From positions 121,435 through 185,434 of the forward strand of contig NZ_LUKF01000002.1 in the NCBI RefSeq assembly GCF_001592755.1: a stretch of DNA of 64,000 bases, in the 5' to 3' direction. The notes beneath the pieces were generated by a model. That model was not told the origin of the DNA, did not search any database, and saw only the letters and a program-made list of their open reading frames with translations. The translations under genes were made by a program, and so were the position numbers. This stretch comes from Bdellovibrio bacteriovorus (GTDB taxonomy: Bacteria; Bdellovibrionota; Bdellovibrionia; Bdellovibrionales; Bdellovibrionaceae). Positions 16,772 through 59,974 of the stretch are shown here, one piece after another; within the stretch, counting starts at the first letter, position 1; every line of letters begins with the position of its first letter.

Positions 16772-17068
16772 TTATTTTTTGACGCACGCGCCACTATGAC
16801 AGACATGATCACCGGCGCAGGTGATTTCTTTTTCCAAAGGCTGTCCGTTTTGACAGGAAAATTCTAAAACTTTCTGTCCATCTAAACAGCGGTCATGTTC
16901 TTTGATCATTTGTGTGTAACAAGAATCTCCCAAACAATTCTCATCACCTAAAGAATAAACTACTTTACCTGCAACCAAGGGCTGAACTCCATTGTCAGAG
17001 TCCTTACACACACCTGCGTGAACAGTTCCGGTCGCCATAAGAAAAGAAATAATAAGGAGATATTTCAT
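16772..17068 (-). CDS. Small Cys-rich exported protein
   Basis: This is a 98-residue protein with a clear signal peptide (LLIISFLMATGTVHA) and a short mature domain carrying ten cysteines, likely held by disulfides in the periplasm or outside the cell. I do not recognise the family. Its ATG shares one base with the stop of the next exported protein gene upstream (TAATG), so the two are translated together and may act together. Confidence 0.8.
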   Translation of the reverse strand: MKYLLIISFLMATGTVHAGVCKDSDNGVQPLVAGKVVYSLGDENCLGDSCYTQMIKEHDRCLDGQKVLEFSCQNGQPLEKEITCAGDHVCHSGACVKK

Positions 17069-17763
17069 TATTGCACCTCACAGCGGTAGCTCTTCGTTAA
17101 AGAGGCTTGGGTTGTCCAGTCACGCTCTTTTTTCGGAGGTCCACACATCACGATCAATTCTAAATCAACTTGCTTTGACTCTTGGCTTTTTAAACGGATT
17201 GTTGAAGAGTAGGAGCATGGAGATTGGCAATACTTCTGCTCCATGTATTCACCCAAACTGTTATCACTCATCAGGGTTTCTTGCGCAAACGTGGTGGCAT
17301 CCGCCGTATTTGCAAAAGCTTTTCTAATGGCTTTTCCACTGGCTGCGACACCGAACTTTTTTCCTTCTGCCGGAGAAAGCTGAATTGCCGTGTACTGTTG
17401 GGGGCAAGACTCATGCGGAACTACGCCTGTGGGTTTCGTAGAAACTTCCACCACAGGAGCACTGATGCGTGAACATCCGCCGGGACATCCGCCTGACTGT
17501 TTCAGAAATTCTTTTTGCAGACCTTCGAGTTGCGAAAACAAGCCCTTCATTTTAGAGCTGGCCGACAAAATTCCATAACTAATCGCAGGCAAGGCTTGCT
17601 TTTCAGCTTTCACCTTCACATCGCAATGGGATTTGTTGTTTTTATTGAGCACATCGCAAAGCTCTTTCAAGTCTTGCGTTGACGATGTCTTCGAAGAACA
17701 GGCCTGCTGGGCATGAGCCACAGACCCCAATACAAAAATCAAAGTTAAGAGAATGTGTTTCAT
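17068..17763 (-). CDS. Cys-rich exported protein with FliA-type promoter
   Basis: This is a 231-residue protein with a signal peptide (MKHILLTLIFVLGSVAHAQ). The mature part has cysteine clusters CPGGC and CQSPC and a helical segment around 65-90; the family is not known to me. There is no ribosome-binding site before the ATG. Instead the octamer GCCGATAA lies seven bases upstream with a TAAAATAA element 12 bases further, matching a sigma-28 promoter and predicting a nearly leaderless transcript. The small Cys-rich gene downstream overlaps by one base. Likely a secreted product of the motile stage (inference). Confidence 0.82.
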   Translation of the reverse strand: MKHILLTLIFVLGSVAHAQQACSSKTSSTQDLKELCDVLNKNNKSHCDVKVKAEKQALPAISYGILSASSKMKGLFSQLEGLQKEFLKQSGGCPGGCSRISAPVVEVSTKPTGVVPHESCPQQYTAIQLSPAEGKKFGVAASGKAIRKAFANTADATTFAQETLMSDNSLGEYMEQKYCQSPCSYSSTIRLKSQESKQVDLELIVMCGPPKKERDWTTQASLTKSYRCEVQ

Positions 17764-17770
17764 GCTGACT

Positions 17771-17798
17771 TTATCGGCAGATTAAACGGCTTATTTTA
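17771..17798 (-). promoter_or_regulatory. Sigma-28 (FliA)-type promoter
   Basis: Read on the minus strand: TAAAATAA, 12 bases, then GCCGATAA, against the E. coli FliA consensus TAAAGTTT, 11 bases, GCCGATAA. The -10 is a perfect match. The start codon begins seven bases after it, so transcription should begin at or within two bases of the ATG. Confidence 0.65.
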
Positions 17799-17872
17799 GC
17801 GCTTTTCCTTGAAAAAACGCCGGTTTCCTTATTGTTTCCACATTGTCAGATTTGAGGGCGAAAGTCCGGCAC

Positions 17873-18679
17873 CTATTGGCACAGAGTCATGTTATTTGCG
17901 ATATAACGGCGCTGAGCCGCAAGGTCTGCTTCGGAATAACTGAGCTCCGCCGTCGTGCAGTGATGAGTCTGTGCAAGTTCTTCGACGGCTTCTTTTTCAG
18001 AAACAGAAAGTCCTAACGACCAGATCAGTTTAACTTTCAACCACTGCGCTAAGTATTGGCATTGATAGCTGCGATTGGGAGGCATATATCCCTCAGGCGT
18101 CTTATCACTCTTTGAAGAGTTTTCCGGACCATAGACAGGGAGCAAGTGAAACTCATTCCCCATGTAGTTCGCATAAAGACAACGTCTTTGCCAATTCCAT
18201 TTGTAAGCACCGCTAATGTAGGCATTTTTCAACGGAACAAAATGATCAATTTGAATATCCGCAGCACGCCGGTAGTCCCGGTTGCTATAGGGATCCGCCC
18301 AGTGTCCGTCAGTCACCGTGCACCCGTTAGAAGCGAAAGACACTTCCACGGAAGAATCGCGAATTAAAACTTTTGCGCGCGTGTTATAGCAAGTGCCGTC
18401 GCGATGATCGCGCAGCCACGCTCCGAAATGCTTAGCGCGATTATAGCGTTCTTTATAATCCGCGTATTTGTCTTTAGAATACGAAAAGTTGAGAAGAGAT
18501 AAAACAGAGTTGGTCAGTGCATTTAATTCGGTGGTGTCTTCAAGAAATTCTTCGGCGATATGAAGAGGATTTAAAAGGGCTTTTTTCGGCGGAGATTTTA
18601 CGGACTCTTGAACCAAATAATACTGAGCGTGGGCTGTTCCGCCCGCCAGCAACAACATTATCAGAAACAATGTTTTCAT
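17873..18679 (-). CDS. Exported HNH-family (DUF1524) nuclease
   Basis: Predicted secreted or periplasmic DNase. The 268 residues have a signal peptide (LFLIMLLLAGGTAHA). The C-terminal domain shows the DUF1524/HNH pattern: IDHFVPLKNAYISGAYKW with the metal-binding Asp-His, then RRCLYANYMGNEFHLL and NSSKSDKTPEGYMPPN with the Asn and Lys typical of this group. Related secreted nucleases are found in many bacteria and could scavenge DNA; in a predator they would digest prey nucleic acid (inference). A GGAG ribosome-binding site lies six bases before the ATG. It stands alone on the minus strand. Confidence 0.87.
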   Translation of the reverse strand: MKTLFLIMLLLAGGTAHAQYYLVQESVKSPPKKALLNPLHIAEEFLEDTTELNALTNSVLSLLNFSYSKDKYADYKERYNRAKHFGAWLRDHRDGTCYNTRAKVLIRDSSVEVSFASNGCTVTDGHWADPYSNRDYRRAADIQIDHFVPLKNAYISGAYKWNWQRRCLYANYMGNEFHLLPVYGPENSSKSDKTPEGYMPPNRSYQCQYLAQWLKVKLIWSLGLSVSEKEAVEELAQTHHCTTAELSYSEADLAAQRRYIANNMTLCQ

Positions 18680-39240: not shown

Positions 39241-39267
39241 GAAAATTCCAGAACGTTCCGCCGATAA
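39241..39267 (+). promoter_or_regulatory. Sigma-28 (FliA)-type promoter of the glutaminase-like gene
   Basis: GAAAATTC, 11 bases, then a perfect GCCGATAA (39260-39267), the FliA spacing. The start codon lies eight bases after the octamer, so the transcript should have a leader of only one to three bases; no ribosome-binding site exists in the gap. Confidence 0.65.
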
Positions 39268-39275
39268 GAAGAGCG

Positions 39276-40037
39276 ATGAAAGGCTTGCTTGCTCTTCTTT
39301 TCAGTTTGAATGCATCTGTGGTTTCCGCGAACGACGGTTTGCATTCCTTTGTCAAAGGCCTGGATACCACCCTTAAATATGTCCATCGCGCAGATTCGCG
39401 TCCTTGCGAAAATGAAGCTTTGATCCCGGCCTCTTCACAAAGTGCAAAGTATCAAGGCAAAGCGGTCACGGCACTTTCTGAATCCGATGCGCAAGCTTTG
39501 TTTCGCGAAATGCAGTCACACACCGAAATCCCCTTTGATTTTGCCATCGCCGGCTGCGAAGAACGCGCTCACGAAATGTCGCGCCTTATGCTGCTAAAAG
39601 GCGTCCGCCCTTTAAAAATGTTTGCCTCTGTGGATGAAAACAAATCTCCGCGACTTGAAGTCCCGCATCCAAATGGCAAAGACAAACGCCGCTGGAAATT
39701 CCATGTGGCGCCACTGGTGATGGTGCGAATCAACGGTAAAGAGGTCCCTTACATCATTGATCCGTCCATGGAAAAAAAGGCCGTGCCTTTGCAAGAGTGG
39801 AAAAAGCACATGACTTTGCATGATCCCAAAATTCCAGTGATGATGGATGCAACAATAGCTGAGCAGTATGACATCTCGGGACGTTATGTCCGTCCTTTCA
39901 GCGACGAAAGCTGGAATCGCGCCAACCAAGAAAAGCTCAAAGAGTTTAAAGAATATTCAAAAGATCCTGACGGAGAAAACAATTATCTTTTCCAGATGCA
40001 ACGGGATCTTGAACGTATGGATATGATGGACAACTAG
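39276..40037 (+). CDS. Exported protein-glutamine-glutaminase-like enzyme
   Basis: Predicted secreted enzyme of 253 residues, with a signal peptide (LLALLFSLNASVVSA). The pattern FDFAIAGCEERAHEM (Cys94), RRWKFHVAPLVMV (His143) and YIIDPSM (Asp162) matches the Cys-His-Asp triad and spacing of bacterial protein-glutaminases, which deamidate glutamines in proteins to glutamates. The pro-region typical of the Chryseobacterium enzyme is short here (about 20-75). Targets are unknown; in a predator, prey proteins are an obvious guess. It has its own sigma-28-type promoter. Confidence 0.82.
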   Translation: MKGLLALLFSLNASVVSANDGLHSFVKGLDTTLKYVHRADSRPCENEALIPASSQSAKYQGKAVTALSESDAQALFREMQSHTEIPFDFAIAGCEERAHEMSRLMLLKGVRPLKMFASVDENKSPRLEVPHPNGKDKRRWKFHVAPLVMVRINGKEVPYIIDPSMEKKAVPLQEWKKHMTLHDPKIPVMMDATIAEQYDISGRYVRPFSDESWNRANQEKLKEFKEYSKDPDGENNYLFQMQRDLERMDMMDN

Positions 40038-55912: not shown

Positions 55913-55920
55913 GCCGATAA
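55913..55920 (+). promoter_or_regulatory. FliA-type -10 octamer before the fibre gene
   Basis: A perfect GCCGATAA ends seven bases before ATG 55928, as at 17771 and 39260. A good -35 TAAA element is not seen 15 bases upstream, so this match is weaker than the other two. Confidence 0.45.
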
Positions 55921-55927
55921 GTAAAGC

Positions 55928-58900
55928 ATGGAACTAAGGTACGTCACTGGTATAACCATCTCATTATTAATATCGTTTTTATCCGCAAGCGCACTTGCAG
56001 CTCCGCCGGCTCTGACTTTTCAGGGACGCATTTTAAAAACGGACGGAACCCCCTTAGAGTATTCTAACGTCAGCTTTATTTTTCAAATCACAGATCCTTC
56101 AGGTCACTGTGTGATTTATCAAGAGCAAGTGACCGGCGTAAATATGGAGAATTCCAAAGGCATCTTTGATGTTCCCATCGGAAAAGGCGGCGTGAACTAT
56201 CCTTTAAGTGGTGGCTTTACGGTTCTTGATGCTTTTAACAACGCGTCTCCTTTCACTTGCGGAGCCTGCAGTGGTTATAGTTGTACCGACAGCACAAGTA
56301 CTTACAACGCTGTTCAAACAGATGGTCGATTGTTGCGTGTGCAATTTCACGACGGCACGGCTTGGCGTTTGATTTCTCCGGACAACGTGATTCGCTCTGT
56401 GCCCTACTCTGCATTTTCTCACTCTGCAAATAAACTTGGAACCAATGTCGCTTCAGACTTTCTTTTAAAGGCAGGTCTTCCGACTTGTAATGCCGGTGAG
56501 TTTTTAACTTGGAATGGAGCAGCCCTAACTTGTGCTGCCGTCAGCGGAGCCAGTGGCGGGACCGTCACCAACGTGACTTCGACGAATTCATATCTAAATG
56601 TAGCTAACGGCACATCGACTCCGGCATTAACTTTAAACGTCGGCACGACCGCGGGCACCGTCGCGGCTGGCGATGATTCTCGCTTTACAAATTCTCGCCC
56701 CCCGAACGGAAGCGCTGGCGGAGACCTCAGCGGAAGTTATCCGAATCCCACAGTTCAAAAAATTCAGAACACAGCCGTTGCAAGTTCGGCTCCTTCAAGC
56801 GGCCAATATTTCAAATTCGACGGAACCTCTTGGGCCGGAGCGGCCATTGCTATTAGTGATGTCAACAATCTGACAACAACACTAGGAACGTATTTAACCA
56901 TGGCGGCATTTAATTCAGCTGTCGGTTCAGGGAACTGCGCAAGTCACCAAACTCCTTATTGGAATTCCGTCAGCAGTTCTTTTCAATGTCAGGCGATCAA
57001 TGTTTCCGTTGCCGGTGATATCAGCGGCAGTATTGGTGCCGTGTCCGTCAACAAAATCAAAGGCGTTGATGTCGATACGACAGGATTAACCACGGGACAA
57101 GTTCTAAAATACGATGGCACGAAATGGGCTCCGGCGAGTGATAGCAATGCTGGAGGGACCGTGACAAGTGTTACAGCAGGAACGGGCCTTTCAGGTGGAA
57201 CGATCACTACGACCGGAACTGTTTCATTGGCAAATACATCTGTGAGTGCCGGAAGCTATGGCAGTGCTACTCAAGTGGCTACTTTCACTGTCGATGCTCA
57301 GGGTCGATTGACCTCCGCCGGAAATGCAGCGATCCCGACTGCCAGCGGAACAACAACAGGTCTTTTATCTTCAACGGATTGGACGGCTTTCAATAGTAAA
57401 CTAGGTACGACTTCAAGTTTTAGCGGCGATATCTCGGGCACTTATAATTCAACAAGCGTTGATAAAATCAAAGGTCGCAGTGTGTCTGCAACGGCTCCCA
57501 CATCTGCTCAGTTCCTGGTCTATGATGGTTCAACACAATATGTGCCGGTATCATTAAGTGGCGATGCGACGATGGCCGCTAATGGCGCTATCACTTTGAA
57601 GAACACGGGCACTGCTGGCACCTACGCAAAAGTGACCACGGATGCGCAAGGAAGAGTGACCTCCGGAAGTACGCTTGCTGCTTCGGATATTCCAAATTTA
57701 GATTGGTCCAAAATCACCTCCGGTAAGCCAACGACTTTAAGTGGCTACGGCGTCACGGATGCCCTTCAAAACGCCGGGGCCACACCCAGCGTGCAAACAG
57801 GAACAGTCGCTGCTCGACCTGCAGCGGGAACAGCCGGCCGACTTTACGTTGGGTCTGATGACAACACTCTTTATCGCGACACAGGTTCTGCGTGGGTGAA
57901 AATTGGAGATGGAACTGGAACTGCTGGAGCTTTGACGGCGGTCACGGCAAGTGCGCCATTGGCATCCAGCGGAGGTACGACTCCAAATATCACGATCGCT
58001 CAAGCTGACACGAATACAAACGGCTATTTAAGCTCTACTGATTGGAATACATTCAACAGCAAATTGGGAACATCTTCAACATTTGCCGGAGACGTCAGCG
58101 GAACTTCAAGCACTACGAGTGTGGATCGCATCAAAGGCAAATCCGTTTCGCCAGCAGCTTATGCTGCAGGACAGACTTTGCGTTATGATGGTACAAACTG
58201 GGTCAATGCAGCTTTAGGTTTTGCAGATCTTTCGGGCAGCGTGACGACAGCACAACTTCCTGTCGTGCCCGTCTCTAAAGGCGGTACTGGCGTCAGCACT
58301 TTGACGGCAGATCGTTTGCTTGTCAGTAATGCCACGGGTTCGGCTGTAAGTGAGTTTAACTGTGCGATGGGACAGCTTATTACTTTTGATGCTTCGGGAG
58401 TGATGGGATGTACAACTTATGCTTCCCTTCCTTTTTATGCTAACGGTGGGAACTCGTTTGGTGGTAACGCCGTTATTGGAACCAATGATGCTTACAACCT
58501 TGGGTTTGAAACTGGTGGCACGACTCGCATGACTATTCAGAATTCGAATGGATATGTTGGTATTGGAACTGCTACTCCAACTCGCGTACTTGAATTGAAC
58601 TTTAATACGACGACTTCGAATGGATTTCAGTCAACGAATACAAATACTGCCGGTTCTTCATCGATCACTCTGGCCGTAGGCACAAATCAAGTTTATCTAG
58701 GCACCTGGGGTACAACGTCCCCAGCAGGCATGGTCACTTACCTTCAATCAACGGCCACGAACACGTTTGATATAAGTACCCATTTAGCCCAACCTATTAC
58801 AATCTCCACTAACAAAAGTTCGGGCGCTGCCGCATCTGAAAGAATGCGCTTCACTTCGGCGGGACTTATCGGGGTCGGCACGAACAATCCGTCGGCGAAT

Positions 58901-59974
58901 TTTCACATCGCAGGCAACTTACTCACTGGAAGCGCAACGACTCAGAAAGTAGTCAGTACGAACACGACTTCGACGGCAACTTCAAACATCAATAGTGCAG
59001 GCTTTTACCAATACGTCGATAACAGCACCGCCAATTCTAATTCGAATCAGGTTCTTCGTGTCGAGTATATTCGAAATCCAGCGGCCACCGGTGTGCCGAC
59101 TTCATTTGATGCTTTGATTACCGCGGCAAATGCAAACATCAATTCCAATGCACCTTACAACCTGCGCGGCGTAAATGTCGAAGGTCCCATCGTAGCCACC
59201 GGGGTGACGCTAAATACTTGGAGAGGCGTTTCCATTGGAGCCCCATCGGGTGCGGGAACTGTTACGAACAGATACGCGCTGGTCACCGATCCTGCCGCAG
59301 GATTTGTCGGGTTAGGAACTGTGACACCTCAAGCGCAGCTTCACATAACGAGTGCAAACAGTTATGCCGCTATTATGTTAGGTAACGATGGTGGCAGTAA
59401 CAATATTCATATGACCCACGAAGTGGATGGCACTTTCGCTTTGTTTAACGGCACCGTGGGCGCCGGTACGACTTTATTGTCCATTACTGCTGCGGGAAAT
59501 GGCTGGCTGAAAGGGACTCTGACTCAAGCCTCGGATGTTCGACTAAAAAAAGACATTCAGACAATGCCTGAAGAATTGAATAAAATTCTTCAAATTCGCC
59601 CCGTGACTTATCACTGGAAAGAGGAAAGTCGCAGCAAAGAAAAACAAATTGGTTTCATTGCTCAAGAAGTTGAAAAAATTTATCCGGAACTTGTGCAAAA
59701 CAACCGTGATGGAAATAAGTCGGTGGCTTACTCAAATTTCGTAGCTCCGATCATTAAGGCTCTTCAAGAGTTCTATGCGCAGTGGTCAAACCACAGTCAA
59801 AAGATTGATCGCGAAATAGCATCCATCCAAGAGGAAAATAGCTCCTTAAAAAGGCATGTTCAACAAACGCAGCAAGAGCTTGAGCGAGTCAAAAAAGACA
59901 ATCTTCAAAAAGAAAAAGAACTGCAAGAAATGAAAGCCCGCTTAGAAAGAATCGAAAAAAGTCTTTCTAAGTAG
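55928..59974 (+). CDS. Large tail-fibre-like surface protein with S74 chaperone domain
   Basis: Predicted exported fibre of 1,348 residues. After a signal peptide (ISLLISFLSASALA) comes an N-terminal domain (about 28-190) with the common ALTFQGRIL start. A long repeat-rich shaft follows (about 200-880) with GGTVTSVTAGTGLSGG motifs and four copies of a GDxSG...KIKG...YDGTxW unit. Then come a glycine/threonine-rich tip region and a C-terminal S74 intramolecular chaperone (about 1,200-1,285; SDVRLKKDI). The last 65 residues form a coiled coil. In phage fibres the chaperone trimerises the shaft and cuts itself off. Similar trimeric adhesins have been described in Bdellovibrio as prey-recognition fibres. 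No phage genes are nearby. Confidence 0.87.
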   Translation: MELRYVTGITISLLISFLSASALAAPPALTFQGRILKTDGTPLEYSNVSFIFQITDPSGHCVIYQEQVTGVNMENSKGIFDVPIGKGGVNYPLSGGFTVLDAFNNASPFTCGACSGYSCTDSTSTYNAVQTDGRLLRVQFHDGTAWRLISPDNVIRSVPYSAFSHSANKLGTNVASDFLLKAGLPTCNAGEFLTWNGAALTCAAVSGASGGTVTNVTSTNSYLNVANGTSTPALTLNVGTTAGTVAAGDDSRFTNSRPPNGSAGGDLSGSYPNPTVQKIQNTAVASSAPSSGQYFKFDGTSWAGAAIAISDVNNLTTTLGTYLTMAAFNSAVGSGNCASHQTPYWNSVSSSFQCQAINVSVAGDISGSIGAVSVNKIKGVDVDTTGLTTGQVLKYDGTKWAPASDSNAGGTVTSVTAGTGLSGGTITTTGTVSLANTSVSAGSYGSATQVATFTVDAQGRLTSAGNAAIPTASGTTTGLLSSTDWTAFNSKLGTTSSFSGDISGTYNSTSVDKIKGRSVSATAPTSAQFLVYDGSTQYVPVSLSGDATMAANGAITLKNTGTAGTYAKVTTDAQGRVTSGSTLAASDIPNLDWSKITSGKPTTLSGYGVTDALQNAGATPSVQTGTVAARPAAGTAGRLYVGSDDNTLYRDTGSAWVKIGDGTGTAGALTAVTASAPLASSGGTTPNITIAQADTNTNGYLSSTDWNTFNSKLGTSSTFAGDVSGTSSTTSVDRIKGKSVSPAAYAAGQTLRYDGTNWVNAALGFADLSGSVTTAQLPVVPVSKGGTGVSTLTADRLLVSNATGSAVSEFNCAMGQLITFDASGVMGCTTYASLPFYANGGNSFGGNAVIGTNDAYNLGFETGGTTRMTIQNSNGYVGIGTATPTRVLELNFNTTTSNGFQSTNTNTAGSSSITLAVGTNQVYLGTWGTTSPAGMVTYLQSTATNTFDISTHLAQPITISTNKSSGAAASERMRFTSAGLIGVGTNNPSANFHIAGNLLTGSATTQKVVSTNTTSTATSNINSAGFYQYVDNSTANSNSNQVLRVEYIRNPAATGVPTSFDALITAANANINSNAPYNLRGVNVEGPIVATGVTLNTWRGVSIGAPSGAGTVTNRYALVTDPAAGFVGLGTVTPQAQLHITSANSYAAIMLGNDGGSNNIHMTHEVDGTFALFNGTVGAGTTLLSITAAGNGWLKGTLTQASDVRLKKDIQTMPEELNKILQIRPVTYHWKEESRSKEKQIGFIAQEVEKIYPELVQNNRDGNKSVAYSNFVAPIIKALQEFYAQWSNHSQKIDREIASIQEENSSLKRHVQQTQQELERVKKDNLQKEKELQEMKARLERIEKSLSK
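56719..58240 (+). repeat. Four fibre-shaft repeats
   Basis: Units begin near residues 264, 363, 499 and 721 of the fibre: GD(L/I/I/V)SG, a short variable stretch, V-x-KI(K/Q)G/N, then GQxLxYDGTxW. Two copies of LSSTDWxxFNSKLGT intervene. Such units build a triple beta-helical shaft. Confidence 0.75.

Follow-up and report, generated by a model that had tools for sequence, protein, structure and literature searches.

Where does the message of a gene begin when its promoter lies almost on top of its start codon? The question is raised by a locus in a stretch of 64,000 nucleotides from Bdellovibrio bacteriovorus (the window, meaning this whole stretch), in which the gene for a 231-aa exported protein opens seven bases after a FliA-type promoter element. 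The features of the locus are given here from the upstream gene to the downstream one.

17873..18679, minus strand: upstream gene for a 268-aa exported nuclease of the GmrSD_C/HNH type, ending 109 bases before ATG 17763
17798-17791, minus strand: TAAAATAA, followed by 12 bases (17790-17779)
17795..17798, minus strand: -35 element TAAA, its T being at -20 when counted from the G of GCCGATAA
17771..17778, minus strand: -10 element GCCGATAA of the FliA (sigma-28) type, an exact match, conserved in orthologues
17764..17770, minus strand: spacer AGTCAGC, 7 nt, fixed in length and free in sequence except for its final base
17763, minus strand: predicted +1 (the A of ATG), from the calibration of start sites and the -1/+1 signature
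17763-17761, minus strand: ATG opening the 231-aa ORF
17068..17763, minus strand: gene for the 231-aa Cys-containing exported protein, with a signal-peptide-like N-terminus (MKHILLTLIFVLGSVAHA-QQ, judged from the sequence by eye) and 10 Cys
16772..17068, minus strand: downstream partner gene for a 98-aa Cys-rich exported protein, with a one-base overlap (TAATG)

Read directly on the minus strand, positions 17798-17761 have the arrangement TAAAATAA-N12-GCCGATAA-N7-ATG, and the text running up to the start codon is ...GCGCTAAAATAAGCCGTTTAATCTGCCGATAAAGTCAGC-ATG. This bears out the sequence-only reading of the locus, which had claimed a FliA-type -10 seven bases before the ATG and no ribosome-binding site. 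No Shine-Dalgarno-like purine run is found in AGTCAGC ahead of ATG 17763. The missing Shine-Dalgarno (SD) sequence is weak evidence, because an SD 4-mer is present in only 8 of the 28 long ATG ORFs of the window. No ATG, GTG or TTG exists in frame upstream of 17763 before a stop 18 nt away, and therefore the start codon is firm.

FliA is the master regulator of the attack phase and is essential in strain HD100 (PMC3627812, PMC5430801). In HD100, 92 of 140 mapped attack-phase promoters carry TTAAG-N16-CCGATA (Karunker et al. 2013, PMC3627812). The promoter of the 231-aa gene has the same CCGATA as its -10, and its -35 lies in the same place. When 30 genes from two species with the box 7 to 9 bases before the start codon (N7-N9) are aligned on the box, the pattern C/T-T-W-A-A emerges, with T at -20 and A at -18/-17, in agreement with the consensus of the mapped attack-phase promoters. 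A search of the -35 region of these genes for TAAA, TAAG, CTAA or TTAA gives no clear enrichment (6/30 vs 14% expected), while the single columns T -20 and A -17 are enriched. TAAA at 17795..17798 falls in the column shared by the HD100 consensus and this T(-20)/A(-17) peak. Compared with TTAAG its letters match partly, the T at -20 and the A at -17 being the conserved positions, and the A-rich block at -35 is kept in orthologues. The genome (3.66-Mb assembly) has a FliA gene, which scores 281 bits against TIGR02479 (curated cut-off 189.6). With -10 and -35 conserved and the FliA gene above this cut-off, the proposal of a FliA-type promoter is supported at the sequence level. Its suggested connection to attack-phase genes agrees with the occurrence of the same motif at such genes in HD100 (PMC3627812).

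Orthologues of the 231-aa gene are found in 8 of 24 Bdellovibrio genomes, this genome included. GCCGATAA-N7 is present in this genome, G018, G001, G005 (taken to be HD100), and G023; at the same distance, G008 has GCCGATAC, G006 has TCCGATAA, and G016 has the decayed form GCCGAAGA. The N7 site of the G005 orthologue is at 2,507,678-2,507,695 on the minus strand. For the comparison of identity, one near-duplicate was excluded and seven species were anchored on the ATG. The -10 lies exactly 7 bases from the ATG in six of these seven loci, and the degenerate GCCGAAGA is found in the remaining one. Mean pairwise identity is 0.86 for the -10 box, 0.31 for the spacer, and 0.27 for the flank further upstream. 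The CCGA core of the -10 is invariant over the seven orthologues, the final spacer base is a pyrimidine in all of them, and MK or MR is kept at the ATG. The exceptions among the loci are L046, with GAGGA in the spacer, and L050, with a weak -10. The distance is thus kept where the intervening sequence has been lost, as expected of a promoter whose start must meet the ATG.

The nuclease gene, the 231-aa gene, and the 98-aa gene are neighbours in each of the eight Bdellovibrio loci found. The 98-aa gene adjoins the 231-aa gene in 8/8, and is probably on the same transcript. The nuclease gene lies upstream in 8/8, running off the locus end in L046. The 268-aa protein might be a secreted nuclease with two Cys-rich partner proteins. 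Neither the 231-aa nor the 98-aa protein has a family in Pfam, NCBIfam, or PHROGs, and genome contigs scanned with the 231-aa protein gave no relatives beyond those of the pattern matches. Single-sequence structure prediction of the mature 231-aa protein reached a mean pLDDT of 47, too low for use. A match to CFAP298 (E 0.087, below the cut-off) was dismissed. The stretch that separates the FliA promoter from the nuclease gene contains a block TCTGACAATGTGGAAACAATAAGG (17820-17860, minus strand) that close relatives keep; HD100-like relatives have it in the altered form AGAATATGGAAAGATTAAGAAAC.

The FliA promoter could be real while the main message comes from further upstream, either by read-through from the nuclease gene or from an unseen promoter. 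The message would then have a leader, and the FliA start would be minor or specific to one phase. The nuclease gene, a conserved neighbour on the same strand, does end only 109 nt from the ATG (about 75 bases from the -35), and the closest orthologues share a conserved block TCTGACAATGTGGAAACAAT between both genes. However, no sigma-70-like site is found on the minus strand in the intergenic stretch from 17873 to 17763, the ATG has no SD in front of it, and a long leader gives no account of the fixed N7 distance. This origin of the main message is considered unlikely.

The arrangement is general. The exact octamer GCCGATAA was used throughout, and the size of the gene class is a lower bound because only this octamer was counted. 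The controls were the reversed pattern, the histogram of spacings, the in-frame spacing N22, and KTG as start codon. In this genome GCCGATAA-N4-12-ATG has 27 matches, against 6 for the reversed pattern. Among 73 GCCGATAA/ATG pairs at spacings 0-30, nine fall at N=7, compared with a mean of 2.1 at the remaining spacings (Poisson p = 3.8e-4), and 9/9 of these open real ORFs. The genome scan that had been suggested with the sequence-only reading, in which a lack of excess of box, spacing, and ATG would count against it, has therefore returned an excess. In HD100, N=7 has 20 matches vs 2.6 expected per spacing (p = 6e-12). Seventeen of the 20 start real genes and three are spurious (frames of 30, 66, and 13 aa). 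Over the 24 Bdellovibrio genomes 202 N7 matches are found vs 59 at N22; the corresponding numbers are 51 vs 25 in the remaining family and 78 vs 30 in the remaining order (N22 totals summed by hand from the per-spacing table). Most of the 290 genomes of the phylum sample have at least one N7 match, a count made without a control spacing. The sigma-70 hexamer TATAAT, searched in its exact form, gave 111 matches vs 91 for the reversed pattern and no sharp spacing peak, which suggests an effect peculiar to the FliA box. A separate observation concerns contig C1 of G012, in which the same 18-mer, GCCGATAACCGTAGGTTG, occurs three times (at 1249274, 2154436, and 2589923) and is probably a repeated element.

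The N7 matches also carry a signature of the start site itself. The usual bacterial initiator has a pyrimidine at -1 and a purine at +1. Among the N7-ATG matches of the genus, G is found at spacer base 1 in 69% and C or T just before the ATG in 84%, as expected if the A of ATG is +1. In the control matches with GTG or TTG at N7, the proportions are 27% for G at base 1 and 62% for C/T before the start codon (Fisher p = 6e-11 and 8e-5, respectively). The N7 peak with this G1/Y7 signature is seen for ATG and is absent for GTG/TTG. No class-wide purine bias exists in spacer bases 4-6.

Published starts of HD100 attack-phase sRNAs with FliA promoters (Table 2 of PMC3627812), placed on the G005 sequence, give the distance from box to start. 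APsRNA6 has GCCGAAAA-N7-G(+1), its start being the 8th base after the box, and APsRNA7 has TCCGTAAA-N7-G(+1). Therefore +1 lies eight bases after the -10 box in two of the three sRNAs with FliA promoters. The third, APsRNA3, has TCCGAAGA-N11-A(+1); because this start is listed 12 bases after the box, the spacing can vary. In Campylobacter jejuni, 6-8 nt separate the sigma-28 box CGATWT from the transcription start site (TSS) downstream of it (PMC3847290). The sRNA starts, the box distance in C. jejuni, and the -1/+1 signature agree, and with good calibration they point to the A of ATG as the predicted +1. The message had been described as nearly leaderless; this description gains sequence-level support from the 7-base distance, fixed across orthologues and genome-wide, and from the pyrimidine at -1 with A at +1. 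The predicted leader of the 231-aa gene is 0 to about 1 nt.

The longer distance of APsRNA3 leaves room for a start a few bases inside the gene, with translation from a later codon and ATG 17763 mis-called. This is very unlikely, as a complete signal peptide begins at the ATG and a start at the next TTG codons (+22 and +34) would truncate this peptide, MK or MR is conserved at this ATG in orthologues, and the N7 enrichment with its start-site signature belongs to ATG and not to GTG/TTG. Chance or a coding artefact, by which GCCGATAAN would encode Ala-Asp-Lys/Asn in frame with the ATG (8+7=15 bases), can draw on this N7 frame and on the three clearly spurious HD100 matches but has next to no probability and is already contradicted: the in-frame spacings N4, N10, and N13 have no peak, the genus has 3.4-fold fewer matches at the in-frame control N22, an in-frame stop precedes with no upstream start, and the box is kept while the spacer diverges.

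The locus is thus likely to have a working FliA promoter whose start coincides with the A of ATG 17763, giving a FliA-driven leaderless attack-phase mRNA, and to belong to a larger set of genes of this kind. In free-swimming attack-phase cells, where FliA-carrying RNA polymerase is active, transcription would start at the A of ATG or within about one base of it. With no SD, ribosomes would enter at the 5'-terminal AUG, and coupling at TAATG would then take them to the 98-aa gene. The promoter steps of this scheme appear well supported by the conservation and spacing described above. Dependence on FliA, attack-phase timing, and leaderless translation of the 231-aa gene are what we infer from them. 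Likewise, the 231-aa protein would be secreted and produced in the motile phase.

The class comprises about 10-17 genes per Bdellovibrio genome, mostly encoding exported, lipid-anchored, or membrane-anchored proteins and including several prey-binding fibres of the mosaic adhesive trimer (MAT) type. By inspection, the N7-N9 genes of this genome mostly encode signal-peptide, lipoprotein, and membrane-anchored proteins. Their products also include two large fibre proteins and one of 121 aa that is PilZ-like. The 17 gene-opening N7 matches of HD100 likewise encode mostly exported, lipoprotein, or membrane proteins. Two further members lie in the window.

39260..40037, plus strand: 253-aa exported protein with a Gln_deamidase_2 domain; GCCGATAA at 39260-39267, N8, ATG 39276
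55913..59974, plus strand: 1348-aa MAT-type fibre with a C-terminal Peptidase_S74; GCCGATAA at 55913-55920, N7, ATG 55928

The 253-aa protein is possibly a secreted glutaminase or deamidase acting on prey. The mRNA of the 1348-aa fibre gene is predicted to be leaderless. This fibre has a Peptidase_S74 C-terminus, a feature of the S74 subgroup among MAT fibres. Five N7 genes of HD100 encode the common LTYQGRI N-terminus of these fibres, and one of these is Bd1334, a MAT fibre adhesin with a solved tip structure (PMC10769870). Residues 818-1151 of the 1151-aa protein in G005 match PDB 8OML/Bd1334 in the published numbering, which is a basis for taking this genome to be HD100. Several MAT-type genes, Bd1334 included, share GCCGATAA-N7-ATG with the S74 fibre gene at 55928. 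The 231-aa protein is not a MAT protein. It is reported that FliA targets in HD100 include 'cell-surface anchors' (PMC3627812), and the depositors' name for these MAT fibres is 'Cell wall surface anchor family protein'. Together these names give independent, though indirect, support for attack-phase activity of the class promoters.

Leaderless mRNAs are already known in other bacteria. Those of Epsilonproteobacteria (C. jejuni, PMC3847290) resemble the Bdellovibrio class in having the -10 box directly before the start codon, ATG only, and no ribosome-binding site. They differ in having sigma-70 boxes and a link to stress genes, whereas the Bdellovibrio class has a sigma-28-type box and encodes mainly exported and surface proteins. 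The text of PMC3627812 on HD100 promoters has no occurrence of 'leaderless' (0) and no class defined by the spacing of promoter and start codon. Some leaderless starts might have been lost there to the third criterion for a TSS ('positioned upstream of a gene'). In the paper on MAT fibres (PMC10769870), a mention of promoter or FliA was not found. A full-text search for leaderless and Bdellovibrio, judged by title and abstract, found nothing relevant, with most subscription journals and the supplementary tables of PMC3627812 outside its scope. Given the empty search and the absence of the word from PMC3627812, a class with a fixed 7-base distance from FliA box to ATG looks undescribed in the searchable literature.

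Such a class matters because the attack phase of this predator, which lives through the time between prey without growth, has FliA as its essential regulator. If part of the FliA regulon is leaderless, SD control is bypassed in it, translation could respond to the state of the ribosome, and promoter changes would alter translation too. A bolder proposal, which is offered tentatively and held to be doubtful, is a dedicated leaderless arm of the FliA regulon. Surface and secreted proteins, prey-recognition fibres among them, would be made from messages beginning at AUG, and the non-growing attack-phase cell would initiate differently from the growth phase (whole 70S ribosomes, another balance of initiation factors), so that the switch between life-cycle phases would be tied to translation as well as to transcription. 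On the practical side, the box and its spacing allow attack-phase surface genes, including prey-binding fibres, to be listed from sequence alone in uncultured Bdellovibrio and relatives. Note that HD100 promoter regions of ~100 bp have been cloned ahead of an added ribosome-binding site (PMC12622784). With class promoters, such an addition would abolish the native leaderless arrangement of any class members.

The spacing is not the same at every fibre gene. One fibre-type gene has the box at N12 (the loci concerned are L003 and L023 in this genome and L069 in HD100). The gene at L023 has its box at N9 vs N7 in its apparent HD100 relative at L069, so that the leaders predicted for the two differ by a few bases.
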